From positions 62,001 through 126,000 of the forward strand of contig JAIOPN010000062.1 in assembly GCA_021413865.1 (NCBI GenBank): a DNA stretch of 64,000 nucleotides. The letters run 5' to 3'. Each line of letters begins with the position of its first letter. Position 1 is the stretch's first letter. Below the pieces are notes generated by a model, which was given only the letters and a program-made list of their open reading frames with translations, made no database searches and had not been told where the DNA came from. The position numbers and the translations under genes were made by a program. This document shows, one piece after another, positions 3,934-60,873 of the stretch. Source of the DNA: Planctomycetota bacterium (GTDB lineage: Bacteria; Planctomycetota; Phycisphaerae; Phycisphaerales; Phycisphaeraceae).

Positions 3934-3971
3934 AAGACCCCGACGACTCGCGGACTCGTCATCGGGCTTGG
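3934..3971 (-). repeat. GAGTCCGCGA-loop hairpin, copy 1
   Basis: Read on the minus strand, CCCGATGAC pairs with GTCGTCGGG around the loop GAGTCCGCGA (stem 3939-3966), with one G-U pair. It is flanked by the family's 5' CCAAG and 3' GGTCTT. The stop codon of the GT9 gene lies within it (3959-3961). Other copies are at 45077, 53228, 60228 and 61768. Confidence 0.75.
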
Positions 3972-45076: not shown

Positions 45077-45115
45077 CCAAGCCCGATCCCTGAGTCCGCG
45101 AAGGGTCGGGGTCTT
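45077..45115 (+). repeat. GAGTCCGCGA-loop hairpin, copy 2
   Basis: CCCGATCCCT pairs with AGGGTCGGG (one bulged T) around the loop GAGTCCGCGA (45082-45110), with CCAAG before and GGTCTT after. It lies just beyond the mfd stop, between mfd and eboD, so it may end mfd transcription. Confidence 0.78.
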
Positions 45116-53210: not shown

Positions 53211-53227
53211 AGCCCACCCCCTGAAAC

Positions 53228-53264
53228 CAAGCCCGATCCTGAGTCCGCGAAGGATCGGGGTCTT
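53228..53264 (+). repeat. GAGTCCGCGA-loop hairpin, copy 3
   Basis: CCCGATCCT (53232-53240) pairs perfectly with AGGATCGGG (53251-53259) around the loop GAGTCCGCGA. The flanks CCAAG and GGTCTT are kept. It lies just after eboF. Confidence 0.82.
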
Positions 53265-53340: not shown

Positions 53341-53400
53341 TTTTCACCGTACAACCTGTACGAAAACGGGGTACTCCCACGCTAGGGAGGGTGCAGTACC
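53341..53400. promoter_or_regulatory. Two small inverted repeats upstream of the FecR gene
   Basis: TTTTCACCGTACAACCTGTA followed by CGAAAA contains the inverted pair GTACA/TGTAC inside TTTTC/GAAAA (53341-53366). Just downstream, GGTACTCCC and GGGAGGGTGCAGTACC can pair (53369-53399). They sit where an operator or leader of the FecR-ExbBD operon would be. No clear -35/-10 pair is assigned. Confidence 0.35.
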
Positions 53401-53448: not shown

Positions 53449-54567
53449 ATGCACGACAGGGATTTGGACCAATTTGAACGGCTGTTAGCACGGCTGGACC
53501 AGCGCAAGCCCGGCGAACCGGAGGAGGCCGCCCTCACCGAGCCCGGCGACGCGGAGGACCTGGCCTCCATGCAGGAGCTTGCCCACGCGCTGGCCGACCG
53601 GTCTCGGGGGGACGCCGCCCACTTCACGCTCGCGCAGGTCACCGAACTGGTCCGCCAGCGCCGCGATCAGGGCCAGGAATGGGTCGTGCCCGACCATGTG
53701 GCGGCCTGCCCGCTCTGCCTCGAAGCATTCGAGATCGTGCTGACGGGCTGGTCCGAGACGGACCCGGCATCGCTCGCCCGCTACCGCGCCCTCTTCCCCG
53801 GGAAGACCGAAGATGTCGCCGGCCGCATCGACCCGACCACCGCGCCGCTGATCGCCCCGCGCAGCCGCCGGCGCGTGCCGTGGGCCGGGCTGGGGCGTGT
53901 TGCCGCGGCCATCGCCTTCATCGCATTGCTCATCATCGGGTGGAACGCCTACAACAAGCCGACCGGCTCGACCAACGCGATGCTCGCCGAGGGCGGGCTG
54001 GTGATCGACGACGGCGTCATCACCGTTGACGAAGCCCTGACTCCCCCCACCGCCGCGGCGCCGGGCAACAAGCCCTCGGCCGTGAAACCGATCCCTGTCG
54101 GACAGGTCCTGGCCTCGGGCCAGCGTGCCATCGCCACCAAGCGGACCAAGCTCGCCTTCCGCGATGGCAGCACGCTGGAGATCGAGGGCAGGTCGCGCAT
54201 CGCCGTCGAGGAACCCGTGAGCGGGCAGGTCACCGTCCGCCTCCAGGCCGGCGCGGTCACCGCCTCGGTCACCAAGCGGAAACCCGGGCAGACCTTCGGC
54301 GTGTTCACCCCGCTAGGGGACGTCGCCGTCGTCGGCACGCGGTTCAGCGTCGCGTGCGAGGGCGAGGACGTGGAGGTCTTCCAGAACAACCCCGGCCTGA
54401 CGGCGCCGCACCAGAGCAGCGCGACCTTGCGGGCCGTCACCGTCACCGTCTTCGAGGGCATCGTCCGCGTCAACAACCGGCGTGACACGGTGCAGGTCCG
54501 CGCCGGCCACACCGCCACGCTCCACGAAGACCCGCCGACGATCGACATCGCGGAGACGAGGCCATGA
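53449..54567 (+). CDS. FecR-domain anti-sigma factor with HxxxCxxC zinc motif
   Basis: The 372-residue protein has a cytoplasmic N-terminus with the zinc anti-sigma motif H83-x3-C87-x2-C90 (DHVAACPLCLEAFE), a transmembrane helix at residues about 149-167 (RVAAAIAFIALLIIGWNAY) and a periplasmic FecR domain (VLASGQRAIATKRTKLAFRD, then TPLGDVAVVGTRFSV). FecR/anti-sigma proteins hold a sigma factor until a periplasmic signal arrives. The likely partner is the sigma factor at 60319. The ATG is preceded by GAAGAGAGAG. It overlaps the next gene by four bases. Confidence 0.86.
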   Translation: MHDRDLDQFERLLARLDQRKPGEPEEAALTEPGDAEDLASMQELAHALADRSRGDAAHFTLAQVTELVRQRRDQGQEWVVPDHVAACPLCLEAFEIVLTGWSETDPASLARYRALFPGKTEDVAGRIDPTTAPLIAPRSRRRVPWAGLGRVAAAIAFIALLIIGWNAYNKPTGSTNAMLAEGGLVIDDGVITVDEALTPPTAAAPGNKPSAVKPIPVGQVLASGQRAIATKRTKLAFRDGSTLEIEGRSRIAVEEPVSGQVTVRLQAGAVTASVTKRKPGQTFGVFTPLGDVAVVGTRFSVACEGEDVEVFQNNPGLTAPHQSSATLRAVTVTVFEGIVRVNNRRDTVQVRAGHTATLHEDPPTIDIAETRP

Positions 54568-57191
54568 GGGCGGCCCGCGGCGCGGCACGTGCGGCCTTGA
54601 TCGCATCGCTGGTTTTGGGATCGTTCGCCCCGCCGGCTTTCGCCGACGCCGAGGAGGCGCAGTACAACGTCGTGGTCAGCCTCTACAACGCCGGCCAGTG
54701 GCAGGCGGCGGTCTCCAAGATCGACGAACGGCTCAAGCTCGAGCTGCCCGACGCCATGCGGGCGCGCTACGTTTACGCGAAAGGCCTCGCGTTCGAGCGT
54801 GGCCAGAAGACCAAAGAGGCCCACGCCGCCTATGACGAACTGTTGACGAAATACCCCGCCGCCGCCGAGGTTCACACCGCCCGCGTGGCCATCCTCTACC
54901 TGGATTACGCCGCTGGGGAGAGCGTCGCGGTGACCGCCGGTTATCCGAAGATCGACCAGGGCAAGCTCGCCGCCGGGGACAAGCGCAACCTCACACTGAT
55001 GTACGCCGAGAGCCTCGCCACGCAGGGGCAGGCGCAGCCGGCCGTCGCCGCGTACAAGGCCGCGATCGCCGCCGGGGCGGACGCCGCACCGCTGGCACCC
55101 CGCCTCTTCGGGCTGTACCACCAGCTCGGGATGAACGCAGACCTGCTGGCGGCCTCCGCCAACGGCGTGACAGGCATCGACGCCGACACGCTGGCGCTGG
55201 TCCGCGCCGAGGCGATGCTCGCCCTCAACCAGTTCCCCCAGGCCGACGCGGAGGCTGCCAAGGTGCGGGAGTCGGGCGACCTCTACCCGCGTGCCTCGTT
55301 CATCCGCGCCCAGTCGCTGATCCGGCAGAACAAGCTCAGGGAGGCCGCCGCGCCACTCGCGATTGCCGTGGCCAGGATGAAAAACCCGGCCGCGCCCCCC
55401 TCGGCACGGCTGGCGCTGGCGGAGTGCTTCATCGAGGCGGGCAACGCCGAGGGCGCGGCCGACGCCGTCGCCGGCGCGGAAAAACTGATCGACACGCTGC
55501 CCGACGCCGACCGCGCCAAGACGCGCGCCCAGGCGTCGCTCATCAAGGTGCGCCTGGCGCTGGCGTCGAAGGACCGCAAGCGGATCGCCAAGGCCGTCGC
55601 CGACGCCCGCGCCGCCGTCCCCGCCGATCAGCTCCCCAAGCTGCTCTACGCCCGCCTCTTCGCGCTCTCGGAAGAGGGCGAGAACAAGGCGATCGTGCAA
55701 TCGATGGCCCAAGACCTGCCCGTGCTCCAGACCAGCGACGAGTACGGCCCCTCCGCGATGATCTTCGCCGCCGCCCTCCGCGCCACTGGCCAGCCCGATG
55801 AGGCGATGAAGGTGCTACAGGAGCTGATCCAGAAAAAGCCGGCCGCGCCCGAGGCGGTCAAGGCCCGCGTGGTGATCGCCAACGCCCTACTCGACAAGGG
55901 CGACACCGCCGGCGCGGCCGCGCTGCTCGACGCCGTCGTCGCCGACAAGCAGTCGCCCGAACGGTTAGGCAAGGCCGCGATGGACGAGGTGCTCTTCAAC
56001 CGCGCCGTGCTCGCGGAGAAAAACGGCAACCACGACGCCGCCATCCAATCGCTCACGGCCCTGCTCGCCTCTACCCCTACCGATGAGACCGCCAAGCAGG
56101 CCGCCCCGCTGCTGGGCCAGGCGTACGCCGCCAAGGGCGACTTCGCCAACGCCGCGGCGACGTGGAAAAAAGCCCTGGCCGACGGCCGATTCCGCGACGA
56201 GGCGGACCTGCGCGACCGCCTCTCCCGCGCCCAGTTCGCCGTGAAGGATTACGCCGGCGTGGTCGAGCAGATGGAGGCCTGGTCCAAAACGCTCAAGGAC
56301 CCGGCGAAGCTGCCGCGCGAGAGCCGTGAACTCTGGGCGCGCTCGCTCTTCTCCGCCAACCGCTTCGCCGATTCCGCCGCGATGTACGCCACGCTCGCCG
56401 AGTCGCACCGGGACACGCCCGGTTACGCCTACGAGGCGGGCGTCGCCTACGACCGCGCCAACGACGCCGCCTCCGCCGAGAAGTGGTACGGCAAGGCGCA
56501 GAGCAACAAAGAAAAACTGCCGCCCGAGTACGCCGCGGCGGTGGACGACAACCTCGCCTCCCTGCGGCTGCGCAGCGGCACGGGCGACATGGGCGCCTCC
56601 ATGTGGCTGGACCGGCTGGCGTCGGCGAAGGACGAGAAAGAGTTCGACCAGGCCTCCGCGGCGGTGCGGAAGGTGCTCCAGGCCGGCAAGCTCGGCCCCA
56701 CCGAGCGCGGCCGGCTGACGCAGATCATGAACGGCCTGCCCGTCGAGAAATCGCGCCGCTACGCCGTGGGCGCGCTGCTCCTCGAATCCCTCCTCGCCGC
56801 CAACGACCTCAAAACCGCCGGCCAGATCGCCGACGCGCTCAACGACGCCTTCACCGCCAACGAAAAGACGATCCCCGCCACCGAATCCGGCGCGACGCTC
56901 GGCCCGGCGGTCATCCACTTCGCCCGCGGCGAGTCCATGCGCGACAGGGGCAGGCCCACCGACGCCCTGGTGGAGTACGAGACCGTGCTGTCGGCCTACC
57001 CATACAACGAGTGGCCCGACGCCGCCGCCTGCGGCGCCGCCGAGTGCTACGCCGTTCTGGGCGACAAGGCCACCGCCATCACCAAGTTTCAGGAAGTCAT
57101 TGCCGTGAACCCGCCCCCGCCCGCCTCCGCCAGATGGCGGGAGCTGGCGCAGCGACGCATCGCCGAACTTCAGAAGGAGGTCAAGCCTTGA
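54564..57191 (+). CDS. Exported tetratricopeptide-repeat protein, 875 residues
   Basis: The product has a signal peptide (AALIASLVLGSFAPPAFADA) and many TPR-like helical pairs through its length (YNVVVSLYNAGQWQAAVSKI at the N-terminus, YAVLGDKATAITKFQEVIAV at the C-terminus). TPR arrays scaffold protein complexes, and exported ones often sit with TolQ/ExbB systems (as CpoB/YbgF does with Tol). It overlaps the FecR gene by ATGA and the ExbB gene by TTGA, so it is translated as part of one unit. The binding partners are unknown. Confidence 0.86.
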   Translation: MRAARGAARAALIASLVLGSFAPPAFADAEEAQYNVVVSLYNAGQWQAAVSKIDERLKLELPDAMRARYVYAKGLAFERGQKTKEAHAAYDELLTKYPAAAEVHTARVAILYLDYAAGESVAVTAGYPKIDQGKLAAGDKRNLTLMYAESLATQGQAQPAVAAYKAAIAAGADAAPLAPRLFGLYHQLGMNADLLAASANGVTGIDADTLALVRAEAMLALNQFPQADAEAAKVRESGDLYPRASFIRAQSLIRQNKLREAAAPLAIAVARMKNPAAPPSARLALAECFIEAGNAEGAADAVAGAEKLIDTLPDADRAKTRAQASLIKVRLALASKDRKRIAKAVADARAAVPADQLPKLLYARLFALSEEGENKAIVQSMAQDLPVLQTSDEYGPSAMIFAAALRATGQPDEAMKVLQELIQKKPAAPEAVKARVVIANALLDKGDTAGAAALLDAVVADKQSPERLGKAAMDEVLFNRAVLAEKNGNHDAAIQSLTALLASTPTDETAKQAAPLLGQAYAAKGDFANAAATWKKALADGRFRDEADLRDRLSRAQFAVKDYAGVVEQMEAWSKTLKDPAKLPRESRELWARSLFSANRFADSAAMYATLAESHRDTPGYAYEAGVAYDRANDAASAEKWYGKAQSNKEKLPPEYAAAVDDNLASLRLRSGTGDMGASMWLDRLASAKDEKEFDQASAAVRKVLQAGKLGPTERGRLTQIMNGLPVEKSRRYAVGALLLESLLAANDLKTAGQIADALNDAFTANEKTIPATESGATLGPAVIHFARGESMRDRGRPTDALVEYETVLSAYPYNEWPDAAACGAAECYAVLGDKATAITKFQEVIAVNPPPPASARWRELAQRRIAELQKEVKP

Positions 57192-57862
57192 ATTACTTCA
57201 TCCAGACCGTTGACCTGTTCCTGCGCGGCGGCATGTTCATGTGGCCGCTGCTGATCGCCGCCATCGCCGCCATCGTGCTTATCGTCGAGCGGCTGCTCTA
57301 CCTGCGTGAGAACCGCATCAACTGGGACCGCTTCCACTTCGAGCTTAAGAGCGCTCTCAAGGAGAACGACTTGGAGCGTGCCACGGTGCTGGCCGCCAAG
57401 ACCAGGGGCGTCATCGGCCGGGTGATGGAGGAGTGCCTCCTGAAGATCAAGGCCGGCGAGACCGACGTGGAGAGCGCCACCGAAAAGATCATCCTCGACG
57501 AGATGTCGTCGATGGAAAAATCGCGCGGCTGGCTCGCCGTCATCATCCAGGTCTCCCCGCTGCTGGGCATCATCGGCACCGTGCAGGGCATGATTGTCTG
57601 CTTCATGTCCATCGAGGCCTCCGCCACCACCGACCCCAAACTCCTGGCCAGCGGCATCTACACCGCGCTCATCACCACCTTCGGCGGCCTGGTCGTCACC
57701 ATCCCCACCGCCGTCGCCCAGGAGTACTTCCGCAAGGAGATCAACAACATCCTCCACTTCATGGACCTCTACCTCATCGAGGTCCGCGAGTGGCAGGATA
57801 AGCGGACGGGCCTGGACGACGGCCACGGCAAGGAGACCGAGCATGCGCTCCAGCACGCGTAA
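57188..57862 (+). CDS. exbB: ExbB/TolQ/MotA-family proton channel subunit
   Basis: The 224-residue protein has three membrane helices (about residues 13-35, 113-140 and 155-178) and the family core GWLAVIIQVSPLLGIIGTVQ, then YTALITTFGGLVVTIPTAVA. ExbB pentamers with ExbD use the proton gradient to move a partner protein. The start is a TTG at 57188 because AAGGAGG lies eight bases upstream and the TTGA overlaps the TPR gene stop; no ATG fits. The exbD start lies inside its 3' end. Confidence 0.92.
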   Translation: MNYFIQTVDLFLRGGMFMWPLLIAAIAAIVLIVERLLYLRENRINWDRFHFELKSALKENDLERATVLAAKTRGVIGRVMEECLLKIKAGETDVESATEKIILDEMSSMEKSRGWLAVIIQVSPLLGIIGTVQGMIVCFMSIEASATTDPKLLASGIYTALITTFGGLVVTIPTAVAQEYFRKEINNILHFMDLYLIEVREWQDKRTGLDDGHGKETEHALQHA

Positions 57863-58277
57863 GCGCCACCGCCTCGAGCCCAGCAACGGCATGGACATGA
57901 CGCCCCTGATCGACGTCGTGTTCCAGCTCATCCTTTTCTTTATGCTGACCTCGAGCCTGACGCGCCCCAACCAGATCCAGCTCGACCTCCCCGAGTCCTC
58001 CAGCGGCGTCAAGGCGCAGGAGGAGCAGTCGCTCGTGGTCTCCTACCGCATCGCCGAGGGCGGCCCCGCCATCCTGCTCAACGACAAGCCCGTCGCCCAG
58101 CTCTCCAAGCTCGGCGAAGCGATGGCCGCCATCGCCCAGCCCAGCGAAAAGCCGCGCGTCGATATCCGCATCGACAAAACCGTGCCCTACCAGGAAGTCA
58201 TCTCGCTCATGGACACGGTGCGCGACGCTGGATTCCCGAAGTTTTCCCTCCAGACCCTGGCCGGCGGGAGCCGCTAA
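57843..58277 (+). CDS. exbD: ExbD/TolR-family protein
   Basis: The 144-residue protein has one N-terminal helix with the proton-path aspartate D24 (GMDMTPLIDVVFQLILFFML) and a periplasmic domain (RVDIRIDKTVPYQEVISLMD). It overlaps exbB by 20 bases, and its stop is followed directly by the next ATG. It forms the stator complex with ExbB. Confidence 0.92.
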   Translation: MRSSTRKRHRLEPSNGMDMTPLIDVVFQLILFFMLTSSLTRPNQIQLDLPESSSGVKAQEEQSLVVSYRIAEGGPAILLNDKPVAQLSKLGEAMAAIAQPSEKPRVDIRIDKTVPYQEVISLMDTVRDAGFPKFSLQTLAGGSR

Positions 58278-60206
58278 ATGCCCCACGGGCATGACCATCA
58301 CGGGAGCGGCAACGGGAACGGGCACAGCCACGGCCCCGCGGCCAAGGTGCGCCTCGTCGGCACCGTCGCCGGCGTGGACGCCTGCCACCTGCTCACCGAC
58401 GGCGACAACCTCGTCGCCGGCTCGGCGCTCGCCTGCGACCTGGTCATCGCCGACCCCCTCGTCCCCCGCCGCGCTTTCCGCCTCCGCGAGGTCAAGGACC
58501 ACCGCGAGCGAGGCAGGGCCTGCGACTCGGGCTGGGTCTTCGAGGCGCTGCCCGGCGCCCGCGTCTTCGTCAACAACGAACTGGCCTCCCGCGAGCACCT
58601 GCACTTCGGAGACACCATCGCCTTGGGCTGCCACCGCTTCACCTTCCTCGACGGCCGGTCCGACGAGCGCGACCGCCGTGCCAACATCGACGTCGAGGAC
58701 CTCTGCACCGCACTGGTCAAACCGCTTCCCATCCCCACCGGCTTCCTCCAGGGCCAGGCGAGTTGGCGCGACCGCGTGCGCAGCCGGAAGGCAATCGTCC
58801 CCGGCATCCTGCTCGCGTTGCTCGCCGCGCTGCTGCTCTTCCTGTTCCACCAGCCGGAAAAAATCTTCGAGCAGATGCAGGAGCCGATCGAGGTGGTCAT
58901 GGCCCCGTCGGAGGTCGGCCCGCCCTCGCCCGGTGCGGTCCGCTCCATGGCGCAGGTGCAGCGGCAGACCGTCGCGACCCCCTCCGACAACGACAAGCCC
59001 GCCGGCATCCAGGACAAGACCGTCCAGCCGATACGCAACCTGAGCATCGACACCATGGCCATGAAGAACGACGCACTGACCCCGGCGCCGCCAGTGGAGG
59101 TCAGCCGTGTGATGGACCAAACGACGCCCGACCTCGCGCCGCTCGCGATGGCCGCGCCGGCCCCGGCGAAAATCGAGATGAAGCGCGATACGGCGGCCCT
59201 GAGCCGCAGCGCCCCCGTACGGCGGCTATCGGTCGCCGAGGCCGCCACACTCGCCGCAAGACAGGACGTGACTTTTGCTGACGGCGTGGCGGGCGGCACG
59301 GGCCGGGTGAAAACCAACAAGGGCACGATCCAAGCCAGCACCAGCACGGTCGTGTCATCGCAGGCCGCCCAGCAGCGTGCCACTCCGCCGCCGGCCAAAC
59401 TCGACCAGGGCAAGGCCGACGTGCTCGCCGGCCTGCGCTACCAGGCCAGCCCCGTGCAGACCGAGTCCTACATGGGCACGCGCATCCCGGTGGCGCGCAT
59501 GACCGAATCGCTCTCCGCGATCCCCGGCGCGGAAACAGCGGGCGCCGGCGGCTCCGGCAACGTCAGTGGGCCCTCCAAGAGCTACACCCTCGACGGCGAG
59601 GTCTCCGACGGCGAGATCGCCCTGAGCAACCTGAAGACCGGCCGATTCGTCGTCCACGGCCCCGGCACCCCACCCTGGGCCGAACCCGCTACGTACTGCT
59701 ACGTCGGCAAAACGGTCGTCGATGGCAAGCCGTTCCTCTACGTCTCATTCGTCTGCACCGACCCGAACGTTGACGCGATCGTGAACAGCTACGCCAACAA
59801 CCCCGGGTCTTACCGCATCGAGAAGGACGACAGCGTCGAGATATTCCTCGACACGACGTACAACCGGACGAGCTACTACCAGATGATCATCAACACGCGC
59901 GGCCTGTACTGGACGCAGTACGCCCCCGACGCAACGCGCGGCATCAACGCCGAGGGCACCGCATGGGACGCCTCGCCGCGCATCAAGACGACGATCAACC
60001 GCGCCGGCGGCCGATGGACGGTCGAGGCCCTCATCCCGTTCGATCGCCTGGGTGGGGTGCCCGCCCCCGGCTCGCGCTGGGCGGTCAACTTCGTCCGCAA
60101 CTACCGCGGCCAGACAAACCCCGGCGGCTACCAGAACTGGTTCTCGGTCTATGACGCCTCGGTCAACTACCACCACCCCCGCCTGTTCGGCGCGTTCCAG
60201 TGGTGA
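58278..60206 (+). CDS. FHA-like / single TM / CBM9 protein in TonB position
   Basis: The 642-residue protein has a His/Gly-rich start, an FHA-like beta domain (residues about 22-125, GARVFVNNELASREHLHFGD) and one membrane helix (173-190, VPGILLALLAALLLFLF). A 240-residue Ala/Pro/Thr-rich linker leads to a C-terminal carbohydrate-binding family 9 domain (from about 440; YRIEKDDSVEIFLDTTYNRT, then RWTVEALIPFDRLGG). The FHA would be cytoplasmic and the CBM9 periplasmic. The gene begins with zero spacing after exbD, where a TonB or TolA gene usually stands, and the linker resembles TonB. It may be the moved partner, but there is no TonB C-terminal fold. It is followed by hairpin copy 4. Confidence 0.82.
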   Translation: MPHGHDHHGSGNGNGHSHGPAAKVRLVGTVAGVDACHLLTDGDNLVAGSALACDLVIADPLVPRRAFRLREVKDHRERGRACDSGWVFEALPGARVFVNNELASREHLHFGDTIALGCHRFTFLDGRSDERDRRANIDVEDLCTALVKPLPIPTGFLQGQASWRDRVRSRKAIVPGILLALLAALLLFLFHQPEKIFEQMQEPIEVVMAPSEVGPPSPGAVRSMAQVQRQTVATPSDNDKPAGIQDKTVQPIRNLSIDTMAMKNDALTPAPPVEVSRVMDQTTPDLAPLAMAAPAPAKIEMKRDTAALSRSAPVRRLSVAEAATLAARQDVTFADGVAGGTGRVKTNKGTIQASTSTVVSSQAAQQRATPPPAKLDQGKADVLAGLRYQASPVQTESYMGTRIPVARMTESLSAIPGAETAGAGGSGNVSGPSKSYTLDGEVSDGEIALSNLKTGRFVVHGPGTPPWAEPATYCYVGKTVVDGKPFLYVSFVCTDPNVDAIVNSYANNPGSYRIEKDDSVEIFLDTTYNRTSYYQMIINTRGLYWTQYAPDATRGINAEGTAWDASPRIKTTINRAGGRWTVEALIPFDRLGGVPAPGSRWAVNFVRNYRGQTNPGGYQNWFSVYDASVNYHHPRLFGAFQW

Positions 60207-60227
60207 GCCCGCTTGTTTCAGGCTCAC

Positions 60228-60264
60228 CAAGCCCGATGACGAGTCCGCGAGTCGTCGGGGTCCC
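60228..60264 (+). repeat. GAGTCCGCGA-loop hairpin, copy 4
   Basis: CCCGATGAC (60232-60240) pairs with GTCGTCGGG (60251-60259) with one G-U pair, around the loop GAGTCCGCGA. It lies after the CBM9 gene and just before the sigma-factor promoter. Confidence 0.82.
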
Positions 60265-60318: not shown

Positions 60319-60873
60319 GTGAAACCCGCCCCGCAAGCGGCGCTCGACGCCCTGCTCGAGCGCATCCTCAAACACGACCGCGACGCGTGGGATCGGCTCG
60401 TCCGAGACTACTCGGGTTTTCTCACGGCCATCGCACGCAAGGTCTTCACCTCCTACGGCGCCTCCACCGCGACCCACGACGTCGAGGACGCTGTCGGCGA
60501 CGTCTGGAAGAACCTCATCGAGAACGACTGCCGCGTCATCCGCCTCTGCCTCGAGCGGAACAACTTCCTCCAGACCCTTCAGGTGATCGCCCGCAACCGC
60601 TGCGTGGACATCCTCCGCCGCAGGCAGGGGGCGATGACGCTCAACGACATACAGCCCGCCCAGCCGACCCGCCCCGAGCCCGAGTGCTCGCCCGAGGAGC
60701 TCGCACGCATCGTCGATGAACTCCCTCAGCGCGAGCGGCTGCTCATCACGCTCTTCTTTTTGCAGGGCAAGAAATACCGCGAGATCGCCGACCTCACCGG
60801 CATCCCGCAGAACAGCATCGGGCCGACCATCGCGCGAGCGCTGGCACGCCTTCGTAAAACGATCAAAGACTGA
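60319..60873 (+). CDS. RNA polymerase sigma factor, sigma-70/ECF type
   Basis: The 184-residue protein has region 2 (DAWDRLVRDYSGFLTAIARK, then HDVEDAVGDVWKNLIEND) and region 4 (LPQRERLLITLFFLQGKKYR, then EIADLTGIPQNSIGPTIARA). It lacks region 3, as ECF sigmas do. The GTG at 60319 is the first in-frame start and follows a likely promoter. It is close to the FecR-ExbBD group on the same strand but separated by a hairpin and its own promoter. The FecR protein is its likely anti-sigma partner. Confidence 0.9.
   Translation: MKPAPQAALDALLERILKHDRDAWDRLVRDYSGFLTAIARKVFTSYGASTATHDVEDAVGDVWKNLIENDCRVIRLCLERNNFLQTLQVIARNRCVDILRRRQGAMTLNDIQPAQPTRPEPECSPEELARIVDELPQRERLLITLFFLQGKKYREIADLTGIPQNSIGPTIARALARLRKTIKD

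Follow-up and report, generated by a model that had tools for sequence, protein, structure and literature searches.

Gene content and layout of the locus

Within the window, by which we mean the whole 64,000-nucleotide stretch of planctomycete DNA analysed, an uninterrupted open reading frame encodes a protein of 642 amino acids, here called the arm protein (Table 1). Its gene is the fifth and last of a tight operon with the order FecR-type protein, TPR protein, ExbB, ExbD and arm, in which the ends of the genes overlap or abut, and a gene for an ECF sigma factor lies after it. This context, with the FecR-type, TPR, ExbB and ExbD genes upstream and the sigma gene downstream, had been missed in a preliminary description of the DNA. 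The HxxxCxxC motif of the FecR-type protein, with H83, C87 and C90 invariant in all three genomes that carry the complete locus, is described as a signature used for zinc-binding anti-sigma domains (PMC7406223). Both motor genes are intact, the Asp of the ExbD motif PxIDVVF being conserved in 3/3, and the sigma factor scores 72.1 bits on TIGR02937 (cut-off 42.9).

Table 1. Coordinates of features at the arm locus, with the basis for each
Feature	Position	Strand	Basis
Promoter-like motif TTTT-N12-TGTACGAA, upstream of operon	53341..53364	+	Same motif and spacing in two relatives
FecR-type anti-sigma, N-terminal HxxxCxxC zinc motif	53449..54567	+	Pfam FecR E 2.2e-12
TPR protein, signal-peptide-like N-terminus (by eye)	54564..57191	+	Pfam TPR_16 E 5.7e-20
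ExbB/TolQ-type motor subunit, TTG start	57188..57862	+	Pfam MotA_ExbB E 9.6e-25
ExbD/TolR-type motor subunit	57843..58277	+	Pfam ExbD E 1.1e-29
Single-pass arm protein, 642 aa	58278..60206	+	ORF, domain layout, orthologues
Degenerate FHA-type domain, residues 22-125	58341..58652	+	hhalign 96.0%; key residues replaced
Arm protein TM helix, residues 172-191	58791..58850	+	Hydropathy 2.86 over 19 residues, positive-inside
Ala/Pro/Ser/Thr-rich linker, predicted periplasmic, residues 195-435	58860..59582	+	Composition; 29-31% identity
CBM9-like domain, residues 436-642	59583..60203	+	Pfam E 1.8e-9; pLDDT 85.2, pTM 0.86
ECF-type sigma factor	60319..60873	+	Pfam Sigma70_r4_2 E 5.9e-12; orthologue in G007, G017

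The arm protein consists of an N-terminal domain, one transmembrane (TM) helix, a linker rich in Ala, Pro, Ser and Thr, and a C-terminal CBM9-like domain; the preliminary description had proposed such an order on one protein, and the reading frame, the Pfam CBM9_1 match and the hydrophobic segment at residues 172-190 agree with it. Its proposals of a membrane-spanning protein and of a low-complexity linker are likewise borne out, the first by a single strong hydrophobic segment with five Lys or Arg in the preceding 20 residues against one after it (an N-in/C-out pattern found alike in 3/3 orthologues), and the second by composition (Ala 15.4%, Pro 9.5%, Ser 8.7%, Thr 8.3%). Given this positive-inside pattern, the N-terminus is predicted to be cytoplasmic and the remainder periplasmic. 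Two relatives at about 43-45% overall identity retain the entire layout, which is therefore not a product of chance. Taken part by part, the FHA section has 54-55% identity to these relatives, the linker 29-31% and the CBM9 section 53-54%, and since the ends are so much better conserved than the linker (53-55% vs 29-31%), both end domains are probably under selection.

REP-like palindromes, each a CCCGA-stem around the constant loop GAGTCCGCGA, occur in the window at 53226-53262, 60226-60262 and 45078-45113 on the forward strand and at 3939-3966 on the reverse strand. Their stem arms vary between copies with matching changes, and two of the copies flank the operon. A scan with Rfam gave no match within the window.

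The two end domains of the arm protein

The preliminary description had called the N-terminus FHA-like, and this stands as remote homology, although not by Pfam, in which both the best match (Yop-YscD_cpl, residues 42-123) and the FHA match (residues 47-117) fall below cut-off. When a profile of three N-terminal sequences was aligned with hhalign to the genome's own seven FHA domains, the probability was 96.0% (E 4.1e-9, 84 columns), against 0.14% for FecR, 0.52% for CBM9 and 0.07% for ExbB as controls; the FHA homology of the N-terminus is remote but, at the level of profiles, real. An AlphaFold model of this domain, built from two sequences only, reached a pLDDT of 41.6, and a sequence search of the PDB with the N-terminal profile returned chance-level matches only.

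FHA domains contact phosphothreonine through the residues of their GR, SxxH and NG motifs. In 3/3 arm orthologues the Arg of GR is replaced by Ser49, and the Ser and His of SxxH by Pro63 and Ala66, such that GR reads GS, SRxH reads PR(R/K)A and NGT reads (A/S)R(V/I). The seven FHA domains elsewhere in the genome have GR in six cases and GK in one, Ser in six and Ala in one, His in all seven, and the Asn of NGT in five. Because the contacting positions are replaced in every orthologue, it is unlikely that the arm N-terminus reads phosphothreonine or kinase activity. Judged by its residues, it looks like the FHA domains of YscD and PrgH, which are described as functioning without phosphothreonine and are a precedent for a scaffold that does not bind phospho-residues (PMC3635987).

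A search with the N-terminal domain through 298 genomes of the class returned the own genome and 13 weak matches; the eight examined are FHA proteins of other kinds, with no motor-like motifs in the stretches at hand. These eight comprise FHA-GGDEF proteins, FHA proteins with phosphatase- or GAF-like parts, one coiled-coil FHA protein and one FHA-TM protein, kinds assigned by eye except for L083, which was assigned by Pfam. The same search through 392 genomes of the phylum, at E 1e-6, found the own genome alone. As a separate observation, locus L169 (G000:C1) encodes a fusion of an FHA domain with a CpaF-like secretion ATPase, the ATPase being named by eye, and in this FHA domain, too, the phospho-site Ser and Asn are replaced, here by Ala.

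The CBM9 domain placed at the C-terminus by the preliminary description is a solid assignment. Pfam CBM9_1 matches residues 487-639 at 38.2 bits, above its cut-off of 23.4, and also matches all three orthologues. The domain was modelled with AlphaFold from an alignment of 31 rows, for which 30 of 32 relative rows were taken, L046 and L053 being dropped as near copies and L051 contributing two rows. The model predicts a CBM9-type fold, with fold matches to 4jpq (Z 17.8), 7nwn (16.9), 1i82 (16.3) and 7nwo (16.3), a list that does not of itself exclude other families; Foldseek concurs (E 2.5e-9 to 7.4e-6).

In TmCBM9-2 the sugar is described as clamped between two aromatic residues, Trp71 and Trp175 (PMC8280721). 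The position equivalent to Trp71 is Glu in the window, Ile in G017, Val in the fourth copy L025 and Cys in G007, and is aromatic in 26 of the 28 other CBM9 rows; that equivalent to Trp175 is Tyr or Phe in the window, L024 and L025. One aromatic position of the clamp is thus lost in 4/4 arm orthologues. One CBM9 module without the expected residues is described as having failed to bind any natural carbohydrate on which it was tested (PMC8280721), and sugar binding by the arm domain, as read from these residues, may be weak, different or lost; since the clamp is incomplete, a glycan ligand is a guess. Elsewhere, the genome of one relative, G025, contains eleven CBM9-like matches to the arm protein.

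Relatives and a shared promoter-like motif

Full-length matches to the arm protein were found in 3 of 101 relatives' genomes, the own genome included, and a close ExbB in 3 of the 51 genomes of the family; the system is rare in its family (3/51). The relatives G007 and G017 share the gene order FecR-TPR-ExbB-ExbD-arm. The sigma gene adjoins the operon in the window and in G017, which therefore have the FecR domain and ECF sigma factor at one locus; in G007 the sigma gene (59% identity) lies on another contig. A fourth copy, L025, from a metagenome-assembled genome labelled Verrucomicrobia, preserves the C-terminal 410 residues at a contig end, with a sigma gene behind it. In a search of genome contigs covering 31 loci, L024, which corresponds to G017, and L025 proved to be orthologues beyond the CBM9 domain; L028, which also gave a wider match, was rejected when its reading frame turned out to encode a different CBM9 protein of 445 amino acids.

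Among the 30 nearest ExbB loci in the family, three belong to the arm system itself, and 10 of the other 27 were examined and have no FHA-CBM9 arm in the short stretch available. At L132 (2753-3559) a TPR gene, ExbB and a candidate ExbD precede a TM protein with a PD40 propeller; at L135 (1312-2082) ExbB and an ExbD recognised by eye do so. As motor genes in genomes of the same family here precede TM proteins with another kind of tip, the gene order suggests that the tips of such motors may be exchangeable.

The motif TTTT-N12-TGTACGAA lies some 90-110 bases upstream of the FecR start in 3/3 complete loci (the start in G017 is uncertain). Across its region 15 of 30 columns are identical in the three sequences, against a mean of 11.3 and a maximum of 13 in 200 dinucleotide shuffles, none of which reached 15, a test that was made after the motif had been spotted by eye, on sequences that are kin, and that is uncorrected for both. 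Among 175 loci the motif occurs solely at these operons (L096 and L024 being copies). It was not seen upstream of the two sigma genes examined, and a search for shared six-mer/four-mer promoter pairs gave nothing useful. The motif looks like a common promoter, judged from its sequence and position, and could be one for an ECF sigma factor.

Proposed function of the arm and comparison with known systems

The ExbB and ExbD genes lie directly upstream of the arm gene in 3/3 complete loci, and the preliminary description's comparison with TonB holds for this position and for the linker, but not for the domains, as profile searches for TonB_C and TolA domains in the arm gave no match at E 1 in 3/3 orthologues. 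The TM helix of TonB carries an SxxxH motif; this is absent from residues 161-200 of the arm protein in the window. The sole TonB_C match of the genome is on contig C23, and six ExbD matches are spread over C60, C47, C4 and C14. The TonB-receptor plug domain PF07715 had no match in the genome, which is 95.16% complete (a control search was positive in 3/14 genomes). With neither a TonB_C or TolA domain nor a plug domain found, the arm is, on sequence evidence, TonB-like by position and linker only, and since no plug domain was found, a classical TonB role is unlikely. Three consecutive ExbD matches were also noted on the minus strand at G000:C14:10431-12138.

We propose, with a probability of roughly one half, that a dedicated ExbB/ExbD (TolQ/TolR-type) motor has the arm protein as its output arm, which bears a CBM9-like tip, is regulated by the FecR/ECF pair and perhaps signals to it. 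The arm would occupy the place of TonB or TolA; its FHA-type domain, lacking a phosphothreonine site, may anchor it to partners in the cytoplasm or to other copies of itself, its helix would couple to the proton-driven ExbBD complex, and the long linker would take the tip across the periplasm, where it may hold either a glycan or a protein, for example the TPR protein. Through the ECF sigma factor and the zinc-motif FecR-type anti-sigma, expression of the system would follow the state of the envelope, and the sensor may be the arm itself. We base this reading on the tight operon, with the same order in G007 and G017, the sigma gene beside it in the window and G017 and behind the partial copy L025, the conserved ExbD Asp, the CBM9 fold and the FHA homology without a phospho-site, and further on the PD40-tipped relatives, the shared promoter-like motif and the precedents of GltG and PrgH/YscD. 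It must be weighed against the missing SxxxH, the incomplete clamp, the low pLDDT of the N-terminal model, the separate sigma gene of G007 and the lack of the motif before the two sigma genes examined, and adjoining genes need not make one machine; the contact with ExbBD is what we infer, together with the ligand, the direction of signalling and the use of the shared motif by the sigma factor.

A more specific version, which we put forward tentatively and think unlikely, is a proton-driven glycan-probing sensor, in which ExbBD would work the CBM9-tipped arm against glycans of the envelope or the surface, and the FecR-type anti-sigma would relay the load on the arm to the ECF sigma factor. Doubtful, too, is a Tol-Pal-like role in envelope maintenance, in which the TPR protein would be an analogue of CpoB/YbgF, ExbB and ExbD would act as TolQ and TolR, the arm would replace TolA with its tip bound to peptidoglycan or an outer-membrane glycan, and FecR/ECF would merely regulate. 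The best NCBIfam matches of the motor genes are indeed TolQ and TolR, and tol_pal_ybgF matches the TPR protein with 80.8 bits (cut-off 90.1), all below cut-off; but no Pal or TolB match was found among the operon genes scanned, and occurrence in 3/51 family genomes is unlike a housekeeping system.

We regard as rather improbable a force-delivering surface machine like the Glt gliding apparatus of Myxococcus, or a glycan-pulling device, with the tip gripping polysaccharide. The GltG/AglRQS plan of TPR proteins, a TolQR-type motor and an FHA-TM-TonB-like arm favours it, as does a published statement that the mechanism of selfish polysaccharide uptake by Planctomycetes is unknown (PMC6474216); against this, no outer-membrane partner was seen and the CBM9 clamp is incomplete. 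It is very improbable that the tip is a DOMON-type binder of a cofactor such as heme and the arm a redox sensor: ethylbenzene dehydrogenase gamma (Z 12.5), nitrite oxidoreductase (11.1) and the cytochrome domain of cellobiose dehydrogenase (7.8) appear in the fold list, but true CBM9 structures stand clearly higher (Z 16.3-16.9). The original suggestion that the FHA domain reads phosphothreonine, linking kinase signalling with sugar binding outside, draws on the FHA homology but is hardly tenable with contact positions replaced in 3/3 orthologues that are mostly kept in the genome's seven FHA domains.

To our knowledge, ExbBD-type motors have few kinds of output arm, and a tip of carbohydrate-binding type together with its own sigma/anti-sigma pair would widen their roles. 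In the one paper collection searched, we found no paper joining CBM9 with TonB and ExbD, and none joining FecR, an ECF sigma factor and ExbB in Planctomycetes. The locus points to an envelope motor or sensor of a kind so far little known, and offers one concrete candidate part, with a putative role in uptake, for selfish polysaccharide uptake in Planctomycetes; the glycan-probing sensor, if true, would mean mechanical polysaccharide sensing by a bacterium whose genome gave no match to the TonB-receptor plug domain.

Within the TolQR/ExbBD-with-arm kind, the system is a rare variant, neither an ordinary member nor a new class. Its N-terminus shares with YscD/PrgH (SctD) the best Pfam match, Yop-YscD_cpl, and FHA homology without phospho-site residues, but has a motor context in place of secretion-ring periplasmic domains, of which none were found. 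The predicted fold of its tip is that of Thermotoga Xyn10A CBM9-2 and Caldicellulosiruptor CBM9.3, from which it differs in the missing clamp aromatic and in having no secreted enzyme attached. Like FecI-FecR signalling, the locus has an ECF sigma factor, a FecR-type protein with a TM segment (by eye) and ExbB/ExbD genes; unlike it, no FecA-like receptor was found, FecR bears a zinc-motif anti-sigma head and the motor genes lie inside the operon. With TonB and TolA the arm shares a gene beside ExbB-ExbD, a predicted N-in single TM helix and a long Ala/Pro linker, but it lacks a TonB_C or TolA domain and plug-domain receptors were not found, and it has an extra cytoplasmic FHA domain. Among the systems compared, the closest published plan is that of Myxococcus xanthus GltG, which goes together with AglRQS and the TPR proteins GltD/GltE. 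GltG is described as combining an FHA domain with a single TM helix and a TonB-like part, and as binding the TolQ-like AglR in a two-hybrid assay (PMC3169522), and GltG and GltJ are discussed as TonB-like in a pulling model (PMC9389320). The C-terminus of GltG matches TonB, and its FHA domain is matched at E 5.3e-13 (PMC3169522), whereas the arm has a CBM9 tip and a degenerate FHA domain, with FecR/ECF genes attached at its locus. What the two have in common, at 640 (PMC3169522) and 642 amino acids, is a cytoplasmic FHA domain, one TM helix, a proline-rich periplasmic part, a TolQ/TolR-type motor and TPR proteins, the arm's topology being as predicted here.
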